A DNA stretch of 40,277 bases from an uncultured Clostridia bacterium (GTDB lineage: Bacteria > Bacillota > Clostridia > Christensenellales > UBA3700), in contig CAMFVQ010000051.1 of NCBI GenBank assembly GCA_945992255.1, positions 1 to 40,277 on the forward strand, read 5' to 3'. The position numbers and the translations under genes are program-made. How positions within the stretch are numbered: position 1 is the first letter of the stretch; the number at the start of each line of letters is the position of its first letter. The notes below the pieces were generated by a model. The model searched no databases, was not told the DNA's origin, and was given only the letters and a program-made list of their open reading frames with translations. Shown piece after piece: positions 19,467-25,111 of this stretch.

Positions 19467-19494
19467 ATAATCACAAAGCATGGGAGGTAGAGGA

Positions 19495-19890
19495 ATGGCG
19501 AATTATTCTAGCAGAAGAGAAACCATTTTGAAAGTACTCAGAAGTACCAAGTCTCACCCTTGTGCAGAGTATGTTTATGAAGAATGTCGCAAGAGTATTC
19601 CCAACATATCACTCGGCACTGTCTATCGCAACTTGGCGATGCTAGAGCAAAGCGGTGATGTTATCAAGGTAGCGACAGTAGATGGCAGGGACAGATATGA
19701 TGGTGACACATCTACTCACACCCACCTTATATGCACTCGTTGTGGCAGGGTGATTGACATAGACATATCAAGCGAGCTTGCCTTAGCTCTCGAACAGGAG
19801 CGAGCAAACAATGATTATCAATATATTCAACTCAACTTTTATTCGTTGTGTGACGAATGCAAGCAGAGTGAAAATAAACAAACTATATGA
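19495..19890 (+). CDS. perR: Fur-family regulator, PerR-like
   Basis: Winged-helix metal-dependent repressor of 131 aa. The N-terminal half carries the recognition helix around [14 protein letters not shown]; the C-terminal half has [18 protein letters not shown], matching the Asp/His regulatory metal site of PerR, with structural zinc pairs CTRC and CDEC. PerR senses peroxide through iron-catalysed oxidation of its metal-ligand histidines. I chose ATG 19495 (MANYSS) because GGGAGG at 19482-19487 is well placed before it; an upstream ATG at 19480 overlaps that site. The next gene is a rubrerythrin, which supports PerR over Fur or Zur, as does a PerR-box-like site in front of the promoter. Confidence 0.85.
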
Positions 19891-19907
19891 ATGACGGAGG
19901 AATTGAA

Positions 19908-20456
19908 ATGAAAAAATTTAGATGTAGTGTATGTGGATATGTTCACGAGGGAGACAGCGCACCAGCAGAATGCCCAGTATGCCATGTTGGAGCTGACAAG
20001 TTTGTAGAGGTTGTTGCAAATGACAACGCACCTTATGCTGATGAGCATAGAGTTGGCATTGCCAAAGACCTTGACCCAGAAGTAGTAAAAGGCTTGCTCG
20101 AAAACTTCAATGGTGAGTGCACCGAAGTTGGTATGTATATCGCAATGAGCAGACAAGCTGACAGAGAGGGTTATCCTGACGTTGCAGAGGCTTTCAAGAG
20201 ATACGCTTTTGAAGAGGCAGAGCACGCAGCTAAGTTCGCAGAACTTCTTGGCAATGTTTTGACCAACAGCACAGCCAAGAACGTTAAGATGAGAATGGAA
20301 GCTGAGGCAGGAGCTTGCGAAGGCAAACTTGCACTTGCAAAACTTGCAAAACAACTCGGCTATGATGCAGTACACGACACTGTTCACGAAATGTGCAAAG
20401 ATGAAGCTAGACACGGTGCTGGTTTTAGAGGTCTATACAACAGATACTTCAAATAA
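19908..20456 (+). CDS. Reverse rubrerythrin (rubredoxin domain first)
   Basis: Peroxide- and oxygen-detoxifying diiron protein of anaerobes (182 aa). The N-terminus is a rubredoxin-type iron site (CSVCGY at residues 5-10 and CPVCHV near 25), followed by a four-helix diiron domain with [19 protein letters not shown] and [10 protein letters not shown]. The rubredoxin-first order is that of reverse rubrerythrin, known from Clostridium acetobutylicum as an NADH-dependent peroxide and oxygen reductase under PerR control. ATG 19908 is chosen because ACGGAGG (19894-19900) precedes it; the frame is open upstream to 19887. It is probably co-transcribed with perR, 17 bp upstream. Confidence 0.92.
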
Positions 20457-20958: not shown

Positions 20959-22506
20959 ATGACTGACAAAACTCAACAACAAGGTATCAAACTTGATATC
21001 AAACGCACCTTTTTTATAGGCTTTGCTTTTATGAGCATCATGTGCTTTTGGGAAGTATATGATTATATTATGCCTCTCATTCTGTCCAGATATTTTGGAC
21101 TCAACCAAGCACAATATGGTATCGTCATGGGACTTGACAACTTGTTAGCAATTTTCTTGTTACCACTCTTTGGACACCTAAGCGACCGCAAAAAAAAGAC
21201 TAGACTTGGCAGACGTACTCACTTTATTTTGATTGGTACAATAGCGGCAAGCTTGTGTCTTATCTCGCTGAGTTTGGCGGAGTATGGGCAATACAAAGCT
21301 ATCCTAGATGCCAACATTACCAACATAGAGGGCTTGACCGAATACGGCTTAGATGCCAAGTATCTCGCAGCTCCATACATTGATTTGTACAACCAAGTCC
21401 AAATAGACAAAGTAAAACTAAGCGGCAATGAGCTTGTTATGTACAACGAAATGTTGAACGAAGTATATGCTGCCCAAGTCAAACTTGCAGGCGGTGTTAC
21501 CAAAGCCAACCCAGTTTACTTTATTGTATTTATGGTAGTTTTGGTACTCGAACTTGTAGCAATGGCTTCATATCGTTCGCCAGCCGTTGCGCTTATGCCT
21601 GATGTGACACCAAAGCCACTCAGATCCCAAGCCAATGCGATTATCACCTTTATGGGCGGTGCAGGCGGTCTTGTATCAATCGCACTTTACACCTTCCTTG
21701 CCAAGCAGAGATACCAATCTCACATTGCATTGTTCTGCACACTTGCAGGCGTAATGCTGGCTATGTTGGTAGCATATATGTTGACTTGCAACGAAAAGAA
21801 ATTCGTAGAGAAGCGACTCGCAGAAGAGAAAGAATGGGGCATAGTCGATGAAGTCGAAGAGCTAGGCACAGCCAAACTTCCAAAAGAAAAATTTGGTTCA
21901 TTGCTACTTATTTTGTTCACAGTATTTTTGTGGTTCATGGGCTACAATGCAGTCAAGTCACACTTGTCAACATACGCAACTGCCACACTCAATCTCAAAG
22001 ATAGTTTTGTAGGAATTATCAACATTATCAATGGTATCGGCGGTGCAGTTGCACTCCTACCAGTTGCATTGCTAGCAAGCAAAATCGGACGCAAAAAGAC
22101 AATTGTTTTGGGACTTTTGTTGGCTGCAGCGGCATTCATTCCTTGTATCTTTATGAATGCCAACACTCCAGGTATCAAATTCCTATTCCCACTATGCTTC
22201 ATTTTGTCAGGATTTGGACTTGTATGTGTCAATGTTAACACCTTGCCAATGGTTACCGAGCTATCCAAGGGTAGCAACGTGGGCAAATATACAGGATATT
22301 ATTATATATTCTCTATGACTGCCCAATCCGTGACACCATTCTTTGCAGGTGTCTTTATGGACAAATTCCACAGCAATGCAGTATTTATCTATGGTATCGT
22401 ATTTATCTTGCTTGCGACAGTGACCAACATGTTTATCAAGCATGGTGACAACAAGCCAGAGAAAAAAACAAAAATGATAGAATATTTTGGTGAAGAAGAT
22501 GACTAA
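20959..22506 (+). CDS. MFS transporter, GPH/SLC45-like, probably a sugar symporter
   Basis: Membrane protein of 515 aa with about 12 predicted helices and a central cytoplasmic loop near residues 270-310. The MFS loop-2 motif appears as GHLSDRKKKTRLGRR (about 74-88), a form typical of glycoside/sucrose-type (GPH, SLC45) symporters. A roughly 70-residue stretch between helices 3 and 5 (LDANITNIEGLTEYG onward) looks like an enlarged extracytoplasmic loop. AAGGAG at 20948-20953 supports ATG 20959. It is the first gene of a tightly overlapping operon. A promoter like that of glgP hints at a link to carbohydrate use, but the substrate cannot be told from sequence. Confidence 0.8.
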   Translation: MTDKTQQQGIKLDIKRTFFIGFAFMSIMCFWEVYDYIMPLILSRYFGLNQAQYGIVMGLDNLLAIFLLPLFGHLSDRKKKTRLGRRTHFILIGTIAASLCLISLSLAEYGQYKAILDANITNIEGLTEYGLDAKYLAAPYIDLYNQVQIDKVKLSGNELVMYNEMLNEVYAAQVKLAGGVTKANPVYFIVFMVVLVLELVAMASYRSPAVALMPDVTPKPLRSQANAIITFMGGAGGLVSIALYTFLAKQRYQSHIALFCTLAGVMLAMLVAYMLTCNEKKFVEKRLAEEKEWGIVDEVEELGTAKLPKEKFGSLLLILFTVFLWFMGYNAVKSHLSTYATATLNLKDSFVGIINIINGIGGAVALLPVALLASKIGRKKTIVLGLLLAAAAFIPCIFMNANTPGIKFLFPLCFILSGFGLVCVNVNTLPMVTELSKGSNVGKYTGYYYIFSMTAQSVTPFFAGVFMDKFHSNAVFIYGIVFILLATVTNMFIKHGDNKPEKKTKMIEYFGEEDD

Positions 22507-23752
22507 AAAAGCAACTAGCGACAAGGACAAGGCAAAAGCTAAGACCAAGCAAAAAGTCGCCAAAAAAGTAAAAAAAGAAGTAAAGAAAGAAATCAAACGC
22601 AACAAACCACTCAGGATTACGTTGATTGTACTTGCCGTGCTCATCATTGCAACAATTGTTTGTTTGTATGTATTCAAGCCTGACTTTATATCCAATATCA
22701 TTGCCATGCTAAAAGGCAACTCGGGCGGTGGTGGCTCAGGCGGAGCAAATGGAGCTGTCGGCACAACGCCTATAGACGGACCAAAGCTCGAGATGACAGT
22801 TGTCAATGTAGGACAAGGCGATGGCATATTCATCAATTTTCCTGATGGCAAAACAATGGTTATGGATATGGGAACGAAAGGTGGCGTTGATGATGCTTAT
22901 GGCAATATGCAGCAAGCGCTTGCCAAAGCCAATGTGACCAAACTCAACTATGTATTTGTCACCCACACAGACAGCGACCATATATCTTCTATGGCAAAAC
23001 TTATTGCCGACTATGAAGTAGAGTCTTTCCACTTCCCTAAGGCGGCAGATGATACAACAGCCACTTGGAATAAGGTCATCAAAGCGGCTAGGGAAGAAAC
23101 TTATACTGATAACAATGGCAACACAGCCAAAGCAAAAATCAATCTCAATGTAGGTTGTTTTGAAATCAAGGGCGATGGTTGGGATATGCAATGCCACAGC
23201 TATGCTGAAGAAGATTATCCAGATGTCAAGAAAAGCTCAGATGCTTACACCAAGAACAAAGTATCCCCAATATGTGTCCTCACTTATGGTGGCAGACAAA
23301 TTGTTTTGACAGGTGACTCCAACGAGAAGAACGAGCCATATATTTTAAAAAAGGGTTGTCTAGACAATGTAGATGCTGATGTTCTCAAAGTTGCGCACCA
23401 CGGCTCAGGTACTTCCACTACCCAAGAGTTTTTGGACAAAATTGACCCTGAGTATGCAATCATAAGCGTTGGAAAAGGCAACAAACACGGTCACCCAGAA
23501 ACAGGACTTATGGAACGACTAAACAACTATACCGATGTCAAACCTGACAAGGACTATGACAAAATCAGTCAAATTTATCGCACAGATGAAGATGGCGATG
23601 TGGTTGTTCAAGTAAGCTCAACAGGTGTGCTTAATGTAATATCTTCCAACAATGCTGACCGCAACAAGACACAGACCTCAATCGTGTTGGTTGTTCATCA
23701 CGAGAATGTTGTGTTGTTCGCTATCACCACCAAGGAGCAATATGAAGAATAA
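22499..23752 (+). CDS. Membrane-anchored MBL-fold hydrolase (ComEC C-terminal-like)
   Basis: Protein of 417 aa with three parts: a Lys-rich cytoplasmic head (1-36), one membrane helix (about 39-59) and, after a Gly-rich linker (74-90), an external metallo-beta-lactamase-fold domain from about 96. The metal motifs HTDSDH (156-161), GDSN, HHGSG and GHPETG resemble the C-terminal domain of ComEC. The DNA-channel part of ComEC is absent. Related stand-alone proteins are proposed nucleases or phosphodiesterases. ATG 22499 overlaps the MFS gene by 8 nt; GTG 22490 and TTG 22487 are possible in-frame alternatives. The last 35 or so residues do not look like the rest of the fold. Confidence 0.8.
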   Translation: MTKKATSDKDKAKAKTKQKVAKKVKKEVKKEIKRNKPLRITLIVLAVLIIATIVCLYVFKPDFISNIIAMLKGNSGGGGSGGANGAVGTTPIDGPKLEMTVVNVGQGDGIFINFPDGKTMVMDMGTKGGVDDAYGNMQQALAKANVTKLNYVFVTHTDSDHISSMAKLIADYEVESFHFPKAADDTTATWNKVIKAAREETYTDNNGNTAKAKINLNVGCFEIKGDGWDMQCHSYAEEDYPDVKKSSDAYTKNKVSPICVLTYGGRQIVLTGDSNEKNEPYILKKGCLDNVDADVLKVAHHGSGTSTTQEFLDKIDPEYAIISVGKGNKHGHPETGLMERLNNYTDVKPDKDYDKISQIYRTDEDGDVVVQVSSTGVLNVISSNNADRNKTQTSIVLVVHHENVVLFAITTKEQYEE

Positions 23753-24242
23753 TCTTGTACTCATCTCTCCTGATATACACTTATTGAACCAAGTCGGTGA
23801 GCAGTTGTCGACAGCAATGGGTGTCAAAACTATGGATATGGAAGAGTACACAAGATACACCCTATCACGAGATGATGATATTGTGCTAGCCAAAGCTGGC
23901 AAAGATTATTATTTTGAGGGTTACGAAAAGGCGTTCTATTCGCTTGCAGATTTTGAAGAAGCGTTGGTGCTAGCCGATCTAAAAATTTGTATGGTGGACA
24001 AGTTGGTCGAGAATATCAACCAACATATGTATGTAGTTTTGCTCAATGCTCCTGTCAAAGAGCTAGATAGTATGATAACTCAATACATATCCACCAAAAA
24101 TAAATTGTACAAAATGACAAAGACCAAAATAAAAAACAATTTTCGCACTCTAAAGTGCAATGCGGACATTGTTGTAAAGATAGGCGAGGACAATATCGCC
24201 GACATAATAATCGACAAAATGATGGAGAAATACAATGGCTAA
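23742..24242 (+). CDS. Shikimate-kinase-like protein lacking the P-loop, function unknown
   Basis: Cytoplasmic 166-aa protein I cannot assign a function. Its pattern follows shikimate kinase: a first strand LVLIS, a helix, an MDMEEYTRY segment where the kinase has its FIDxD motif, YFEGYEKAFYSL where it has YFRxxE, VVLLNAP near the VVxLxAxP strand, and a C-terminal ADIVVKIGEDNIADIIID. The Walker A motif GxxGxGKS is replaced by SPDIHLLNQV, so ATP binding in the usual way is unlikely. AAGGAG at 23731-23736 supports ATG 23742, overlapping the MBL gene by 11 nt. It may be a regulatory pseudo-enzyme for its neighbours. Confidence 0.7.
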   Translation: MKNNLVLISPDIHLLNQVGEQLSTAMGVKTMDMEEYTRYTLSRDDDIVLAKAGKDYYFEGYEKAFYSLADFEEALVLADLKICMVDKLVENINQHMYVVLLNAPVKELDSMITQYISTKNKLYKMTKTKIKNNFRTLKCNADIVVKIGEDNIADIIIDKMMEKYNG

Positions 24243-25065
24243 ATTCGACGTAGAATTGGTAGGAAAAGTTGGCTCAATGGCTTTGGTAAACAAAGAATGG
24301 GGCGACATTGATTACAATATTATTGCCCGCATATCCAAAGAGTTGGAGCCGGGCATGATATGGGTTACTTCTGGTGCGAGCGAGATAGGTAGACTTGACT
24401 ATATGAAACGCAATGGCGGAATGGAGCTAGAAGGCAAACAAGATGAAATCAAGATAGACTATGCTGCCCAAGGTCAAACCATACTTATGAACAACTATCG
24501 TGAGTATATCGACCCAAAGTACAGCGTAAGGCAAATTTTGGTGGAACATCAACACTTCAACGATGACCAAAAGAGGGAAACGTTGCGCAAGTTGTTGCTC
24601 AGATGCCCAAAACAAAACGCAATCCCTATCATCAACTACAACGACCCAATATCCAACGAGGAAATTGTCAAGCTTGAAATCCAACAGCTTGAACAAAAAG
24701 GCTTCAAGACAGTGCATTGTGTGGACAATGATGAAACAGCATCGCAAGTTGCTTGCCTTGTCAAGTGCAAGACATTGCTCATCTATACTTCCACATTGGG
24801 TATCTATGCTGACCCAACCAATCCAGACACACTCATCAGAGAGATCGTGGGCAAGGACGCATACGAGTTGATAGACAATATCACCGCCTGCCAAGAGGCT
24901 TGCCACGGTGCATCACGCAAGGGTGCAAATGGTGCGAGAGCAAAGCTCGAATATATCAAAGCACCTGTCCAAAACGGCACGCAAGTGTACATTGCCAGCC
25001 CACAATTCAGTATGAAACAAGTGCTGTCAGGTGAAGTGCCAAGCACAAAGATATATGTAAAATAA
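24235..25065 (+). CDS. Amino acid kinase family protein, glutamate-5-kinase-like
   Basis: Cytoplasmic kinase of 276 aa with the amino acid kinase fold. Recognisable glutamate 5-kinase features in order are KVGSMAL near the N-terminus, VTSGASEIGR (about 44-53), AAQGQTILM, a PIINYNDPISNEEI segment and DNDETASQVACLVKCKTLLIY ending in LGIYADP. No proA or proC lies next to it and no PUA domain follows, so proline synthesis is not supported by context; a related acid substrate is equally possible. ATG 24235 overlaps the preceding gene by 8 nt, so the two are probably translationally coupled. It ends the four-gene operon. Confidence 0.8.
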   Translation: MAKFDVELVGKVGSMALVNKEWGDIDYNIIARISKELEPGMIWVTSGASEIGRLDYMKRNGGMELEGKQDEIKIDYAAQGQTILMNNYREYIDPKYSVRQILVEHQHFNDDQKRETLRKLLLRCPKQNAIPIINYNDPISNEEIVKLEIQQLEQKGFKTVHCVDNDETASQVACLVKCKTLLIYTSTLGIYADPTNPDTLIREIVGKDAYELIDNITACQEACHGASRKGANGARAKLEYIKAPVQNGTQVYIASPQFSMKQVLSGEVPSTKIYVK

Positions 25066-25082
25066 TAATATTTATACAATGC

Positions 25083-25111
25083 AAGACCAACTTTTGTTGG
25101 TCTTATTTTTT
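25083..25111 (+). terminator. Terminator of the MFS-MBL-kinase operon
   Basis: Perfect 9-bp stem AAGACCAAC (25083-25091) with GTTGGTCTT (25096-25104), TTTT loop and a T run. Confidence 0.92.

Follow-up and report, generated by a model that had tools for sequence, protein, structure and literature searches.

A kinase gene on the forward strand at positions 24235 to 25065 of a 40,277-nucleotide stretch of DNA from an uncultured Clostridia bacterium (GenBank assembly GCA_945992255.1, contig CAMFVQ010000051.1; Christensenellales, an order of gut bacteria), here called the window, very probably encodes the glutamate 5-kinase of its lineage, a deeply divergent stand-in for ProB in proline synthesis. 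This reading is based on a distribution among genomes that excludes ProB, on co-occurrence with ProA and ProC, on the residues of the active site and on the predicted fold. The kinase would phosphorylate the gamma-carboxyl group of glutamate with ATP. Its product would be converted to proline by the canonical ProA and ProC, whose genes lie elsewhere in the genome. The kinase would belong to its own branch within the glutamate-5-kinase group, one that replaces ProB in most of the sampled ProA-positive genomes of the order and here and there in other orders.

The kinase, ProB, ProA and ProC were searched for in the same 151 genomes of the order, each at least 90% complete, with thresholds of at least 280 bits for the kinase, E<=1e-20 for ProC and the NCBI cut-off for ProB. 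The kinase was found in 83 genomes and canonical ProB in 14, and none carried both; the 14 genomes with a weak best kinase match are exactly the 14 ProB genomes. ProA was present in 96 genomes, of which 80 carry the kinase, 13 carry ProB and 3 carry neither; the 55 ProA-negative genomes comprise 3 with the kinase, one with ProB (G059) and 51 with neither. The association of the kinase with ProA among the ProB-less genomes gave a Fisher p of 4e-30, a descriptive value that ignores relatedness. Viewed from the kinase, ProA is present in 80 and ProC in 77 of the 83 genomes. Both types, kinase and ProB, occur within each of seven families (f4, f8, f10, f12, f14, f15 and f20), in different genera, and the exchange is therefore not a matter of one ancient split. 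Among the non-matching genomes listed, at least seven (G072, G091, G048, G092, G096, G089 and G105, from families f3, f4, f12 and f26) have neither kinase nor ProA, and their family relatives have both.

Mutual exclusion was also observed in a sample of 293 genomes of the class, in which 216 genomes have ProB over the cut-off, nine have the kinase (E<=1e-30) and none has both (p 4e-6, descriptive in the same sense). Five of these nine kinase genomes are shared with the order sample, and the remaining four (G309, G327, G391 and G447) belong to other orders. All four match ProA, three of them over the cut-off and G327 just under it with a match that is cut by the contig end. In genera g82 and g177, each with one kinase genome, the sampled sister genomes have ProB instead, a pattern that would have the look of replacement by transfer, in a direction that we can only infer.

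In its own genome the kinase is a single match and the best one to the ProB model, and no ProB was found above the NCBI cut-off. ProA is ordinary (556 bits to PRK00197) and encoded beside ruvC-ruvA-ruvB, away from the kinase, and ProC (236 bits) is also encoded elsewhere. The original prediction, made from the window alone, that no proline genes lie near the kinase is thus true of the neighbourhood but not of the genome, which encodes both proA and proC. Of the 46 family genomes searched, 44 have ProA over the cut-off and none has ProB, and the kinase was matched in 41, two of these matches being fragments.

Against the NCBI proB model TIGR01027 the kinase gave an E-value of 4.2e-19 and 68.9 bits, the curated cut-off being 186. 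The ProB proteins of the order sample served as a control, since in 13 of the 14 the match stops between positions 253 and 274 of the 363-position model and the score is still 295-329 bits, and length therefore does not explain the 69 bits of the kinase. The only one of the 14 to match the full-length model (L097 in G183) has a 383-aa open frame; ProA and a ProC match slightly short of the cut-off belong to the same run of genes.

The active site was mapped by a HMMER alignment to the E. coli glutamate 5-kinase of 44 kinases chosen from 69 distinct sequences. The columns of E. coli K10, S50, N134, D137, D148, N149, D150 and K217, which we take to be catalytic and glutamate-site residues of glutamate 5-kinase, are invariant in all 44, and the T169 column holds T in 40 of them and S in the other four. 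The motifs NxND and DND were present in 30 of 30 kinases picked from the same 69 sequences. In the ProB proteins of the order (13 of the 14; L092 was dropped by a start-motif filter) NxND was found in 13/13 and DND in 12/13, and neither motif was found in two ArgB or four PyrH proteins. Between the two motifs lie 25-29 residues in the kinases, against 10-11 for ProB. The window kinase has 26 residues there versus 10 in E. coli, which lengthens the loop next to the glutamate site by about 16 residues. Passages of one study (PMC13198045) describe a 16-residue regulatory loop in ProB, and assign a residue crucial to the control by proline to a flexible loop adjoining the substrate site. A different regulation of the kinase by proline through its enlarged loop is therefore plausible.

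The AlphaFold2 model of the kinase (pLDDT 90) points in the same direction as the active site. Foldseek ranks 1-26 and VIA ranks 1-18 were all glutamate 5-kinases or delta-1-pyrroline-5-carboxylate synthases (P5CS), with a VIA Z of 26.3 to the E. coli enzyme (2j5t_C; 2.3 A over 235 residues) and of 19.9 to the best other protein. In a tree the kinase clade (support 100/96) stands beside the ProB clade (97/98), apart from ArgB and PyrH. The kinase thus resembles ProB (EC 2.7.2.11; E. coli 2j5t and 2w21, and the short C. jejuni form 2ako) in fold over nearly its full length, in the catalytic lysines and the two motifs, and in having ProA and ProC as genomic partners. It differs from ProB in being only about 23% identical in the structural alignment, in the replacement of D170, in the 16 extra residues between NxND and DND relative to E. 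coli, in scoring under the proB cut-off, and in having no proA beside it; unlike full-length ProB, its 276 aa leave no room for a PUA domain. It is also similar to the glutamate-kinase domain of P5CS, with 7f5t as its best sequence-profile match and a Z of 25.2 to 8j0g, but unlike P5CS it is not fused to a ProA domain.

Several observations weigh against the assignment as glutamate 5-kinase. The score of the kinase is far under the NCBI proB cut-off (68.9 vs 186 bits), the column of E. coli D170 holds S in 38 of the 44 kinases and D in none, and long branches leave the position of the kinase in the tree uncertain, as the tree tool itself warns. Three ProA-positive genomes of the order sample (G032, G051 and G068) have neither kinase nor canonical ProB. 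This could reflect a third form, gene loss or gaps in the assemblies, although the assembly of G032, which belongs to the family, has only 20 contigs, so that a gap is no easy excuse there. Conversely, G062, G082 and G085 (130-240 contigs) have the kinase and no ProA, and ProC is present in seven genomes of the order with neither kinase nor ProB. Within the family, five of the 46 genomes (G012, G018, G019, G032 and G045) have ProA and no kinase match. Finally, the ProA of the genome, used as a query, matched none of 79 kinase loci, in stretches of limited length, and ProA was also absent from a further set of 76 kinase stretches that partly overlaps the 79. Linkage of proB and proA is common, not obligatory.

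The kinase gene is the last of four co-oriented genes. The overlaps of 8, 11 and 8 nt reported for them in the original prediction were confirmed from the forward-strand coordinates, between the genes for a major facilitator superfamily (MFS) transporter and a metallo-beta-lactamase (MBL) protein, the MBL protein and a shikimate-kinase-like protein, and the latter and the kinase, respectively. The features are as follows.

20959..22506, + strand: MFS transporter gene, first of the overlapping set (Pfam MFS_1 5.3e-41, MFS_2 1.6e-12).
22499..23752, + strand: gene for a ComEC-like MBL protein, predicted external and probably membrane-anchored (Lactamase_B 6.5e-10; MBL part of ComEC_Rec2 3e-30).
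23742..24242, + strand: gene for a predicted shikimate-kinase-fold protein without P-loop, a pseudo-shikimate kinase (profile, AlphaFold2 model, Foldseek).
24235..25065, + strand: gene for the divergent glutamate 5-kinase, proposed ProB replacement (AA_kinase 8.1e-15; proB HMM 4.2e-19).
25083..25104, + strand: terminator-like hairpin with a T-rich tail, just 3' of the kinase gene (pattern scan).

The open reading frame list offers longer starts for the MBL gene (TTG at 22487) and the third gene (ATG at 23652). The shorter starts were adopted, that of the third gene at 23742 being preferred because AAGGAG lies just upstream and aligned homologues start near there. The hairpin is proposed as a terminator because of its position after the kinase gene, not its score, as the region holds six terminator-like sites versus 4.3 +/- 1.8 in shuffled sequences, which is weak evidence. 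A promoter scan of the region gave 13 sites, versus 13.1 in shuffles, and none is claimed. Upstream of the operon, at 19480-20456, lie genes for a PerR-like Fur regulator and rubrerythrin with a 4-nt overlap; relatives of the two also adjoin each other in L031 and L043.

The original prediction held that the third protein keeps the pattern of shikimate kinase while having lost Walker A, and proposed a structure prediction of it, and both the profile and the model agree with that description. A profile was made from 13 homologues (L026, L027 and L121 were left out). Its top PDB match was the designed amidase 4loa, which in the aligned part closely resembles 1via; the shikimate kinases 1via and 1kag came next, with E-values near 4e-7. 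The AlphaFold2 model of 23742-24242 had a pLDDT of 91.8; Foldseek ranks 1-14 were all shikimate kinases, and VIA gave a Z of 17.8 to 2pt5_B. Pfam SKI was matched at E<=0.01 by nine of the 13 members, the protein of the window itself reaching 0.028. The protein thus shares fold and profile with AroK/AroL (1via, 1kag, 2pt5) over its whole length, but the Walker A P-loop, GxxxxGK[S/T], was found in none of the 13 aligned homologues. It is presumably a non-catalytic protein of shikimate-kinase fold. The genome carries a separate SKI match (139.7 bits, in a 446-aa frame), and the protein is therefore not its only candidate shikimate kinase.

Ratios of dN/dS for the third gene could be computed for 18 of the 22 pairs of relatives compared and were 0.04-0.17; 21 pairs were from genus g4 (18 computable, with dS near or past saturation) and one from g3 (not computable). 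These values indicate that the gene is maintained under purifying selection and is not decaying. The kinase gene gave 0.02-0.06 in g4, and the third gene thus evolves faster. Its occurrence is patchy. In 30 loci (L001-L030) drawn from the 41 family genomes with a kinase match, it lies between the MBL and kinase genes in 10, in some genera only, and is absent from that place in the other 20, including the same-genus genome G007. It also lies between the two in L061-L063 (G008, G010 and G009) and in L043, and relatives without a P-loop precede the kinase in G050 (family f6; L068) and G119 (f3; L121). In genus g55 of family f4, a P-loop-bearing shikimate kinase gene is found directly upstream of the kinase (L082 5953-6498, L111 3652-4167, L112 4183-4749). 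An origin of the third gene from the g55 shikimate kinase is unsupported, as the profile scores are lower there (13.7-17.3 bits) than for shikimate-kinase frames of the window's own family (33.8 bits in L110 and 25.2 bits in L109).

The third protein might serve the kinase as a pseudokinase subunit, dedicated to its regulation or scaffolding and kept by translational coupling. The 8-nt overlap of the two genes, the purifying selection, and the position of homologues between the MBL and kinase genes (10 of the 30 family loci, L061-L063 and L043) or beside the kinase in one f6 and one f3 genome are what such a subunit would show. However, its absence from 20 of the 30 family loci, G007 included, means that it is not needed for kinase function, and it evolves faster than the kinase, so that we regard a dedicated subunit as unlikely. 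Equally doubtful in our view is a broader scenario in which a distinct family of glutamate 5-kinases has been repeatedly swapped with ProB in Clostridia, the enlarged loop confers a different proline control, and a P-loop-less shikimate kinase has been recruited in some genera as a co-translated regulatory subunit.

Turning to the two upstream genes, the substrate of the transporter could not be assigned, since only Pfam MFS models were matched and no NCBIfam model above its cut-off. The MBL protein has a basic N-terminus followed by one hydrophobic segment (judged by eye), and the motifs HTDSDH, GDSN, HHGS and HGHP. It resembles the MBL domain of ComEC/Rec2 in motifs and profile similarity, but unlike ComEC/Rec2 it matches the MBL part of the model alone and scores 105 bits, under the equivalog cut-off of 190.05.

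Within the family the MBL gene immediately precedes the kinase gene or the shikimate-kinase-like gene in all 30 loci, which is more than chance. Among 12 loci from genome contigs with MBL before the kinase, MFS lies upstream of MBL in 11; the twelfth, L039, begins inside MBL, giving 11 of 11 where the stretch reaches far enough. The gene neighbourhood search proposed in the original prediction thus found the set conserved within the family, but mostly gone outside it. The order sample includes 72 kinase genomes from other families, and in stretches of 3.6 to 14 kb around the kinase in every one of them (L065-L083 and L111-L163), a relative of MBL was present in two and of MFS in three, and a shikimate-kinase-type gene adjoins the kinase in five (two without and three with P-loop). 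Relatives of MBL or MFS within the stretch occur in a few genomes of families f3, f6 and f14, and 15 of 27 loci from genome contigs (L041 and L044-L057), some on short contigs, had no MFS, MBL or shikimate-kinase relative. In two f14 genomes a same-strand MFS gene, about 40% identical to that of the window, lies upstream of the kinase (L131 4829-6250, L132 5247-7133). In two genomes outside the order, G309 and G447, the kinase is preceded by a 321-aa gene that resembles glycerol-3-phosphate dehydrogenase by eye only (L105 7137-8102, L106 5222-6187). The four-gene arrangement is thus a feature of the family that is mostly absent outside it, and the kinase is independent of it. A single pathway for the four genes is not supported, as the neighbourhood does not hold together outside the family.

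If the kinase acted on a different small carboxylate or amino acid, such as a modified glutamate, and shared a pathway with the MFS transporter and an MBL hydrolase outside the cell, this would account for the constant order in the family (30 of 30 loci for MBL, 11 of 11 long-enough loci for MFS) and for the relatives near the kinase in a few f3, f6 and f14 genomes. Such a pathway does not predict a kinase that accompanies ProA and is never found with ProB, the glutamate-site residues that were compared have not changed, and the counts of two and three among the 72 genomes outside the family are low, all of which makes another substrate very unlikely. The uncharacterised nutrient or signalling pathway that had been envisaged finds no support either, the neighbours being rare outside the family and the kinase tracking ProA and the absence of ProB. 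For the same reasons the kinase is best read as the glutamate 5-kinase of proline synthesis, and the MFS and MBL genes would be its operon neighbours in the family, not required for its function. The least probable alternative, that the kinase is an ordinary ProB missed through its short length or a strict cut-off, draws on its homology to ProB (4.2e-19) and a fold nearest to glutamate 5-kinase, but it is contradicted by the 295-329 bits of short canonical ProBs from the same order against 69, by the separate clades (ProB 97/98, kinase 100/96; long branches) and by the motif spacing (25-29 vs 10-11 residues), in agreement with the original view of the kinase as something other than ordinary ProB.

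Judged from sequence, the kinase appears to represent a divergent and previously unrecognised family of glutamate 5-kinases, and among the matching papers listed, in part, by our literature searches none described a replacement of ProB in this order. One gut-microbiome reconstruction gives ProA plus ProB as the signature of proline synthesis, with curated subsystems and not the NCBIfam cut-off as the basis (PMC9026213). Calling ProB by that cut-off instead would class 83 of the 96 genomes with ProA in the order sample as ProB-less, and 80 of these 83 carry the kinase. Naming the kinase family would close this gap in the scoring of proline synthesis, and the family offers a natural variant for studying the inhibition of glutamate 5-kinase by proline.

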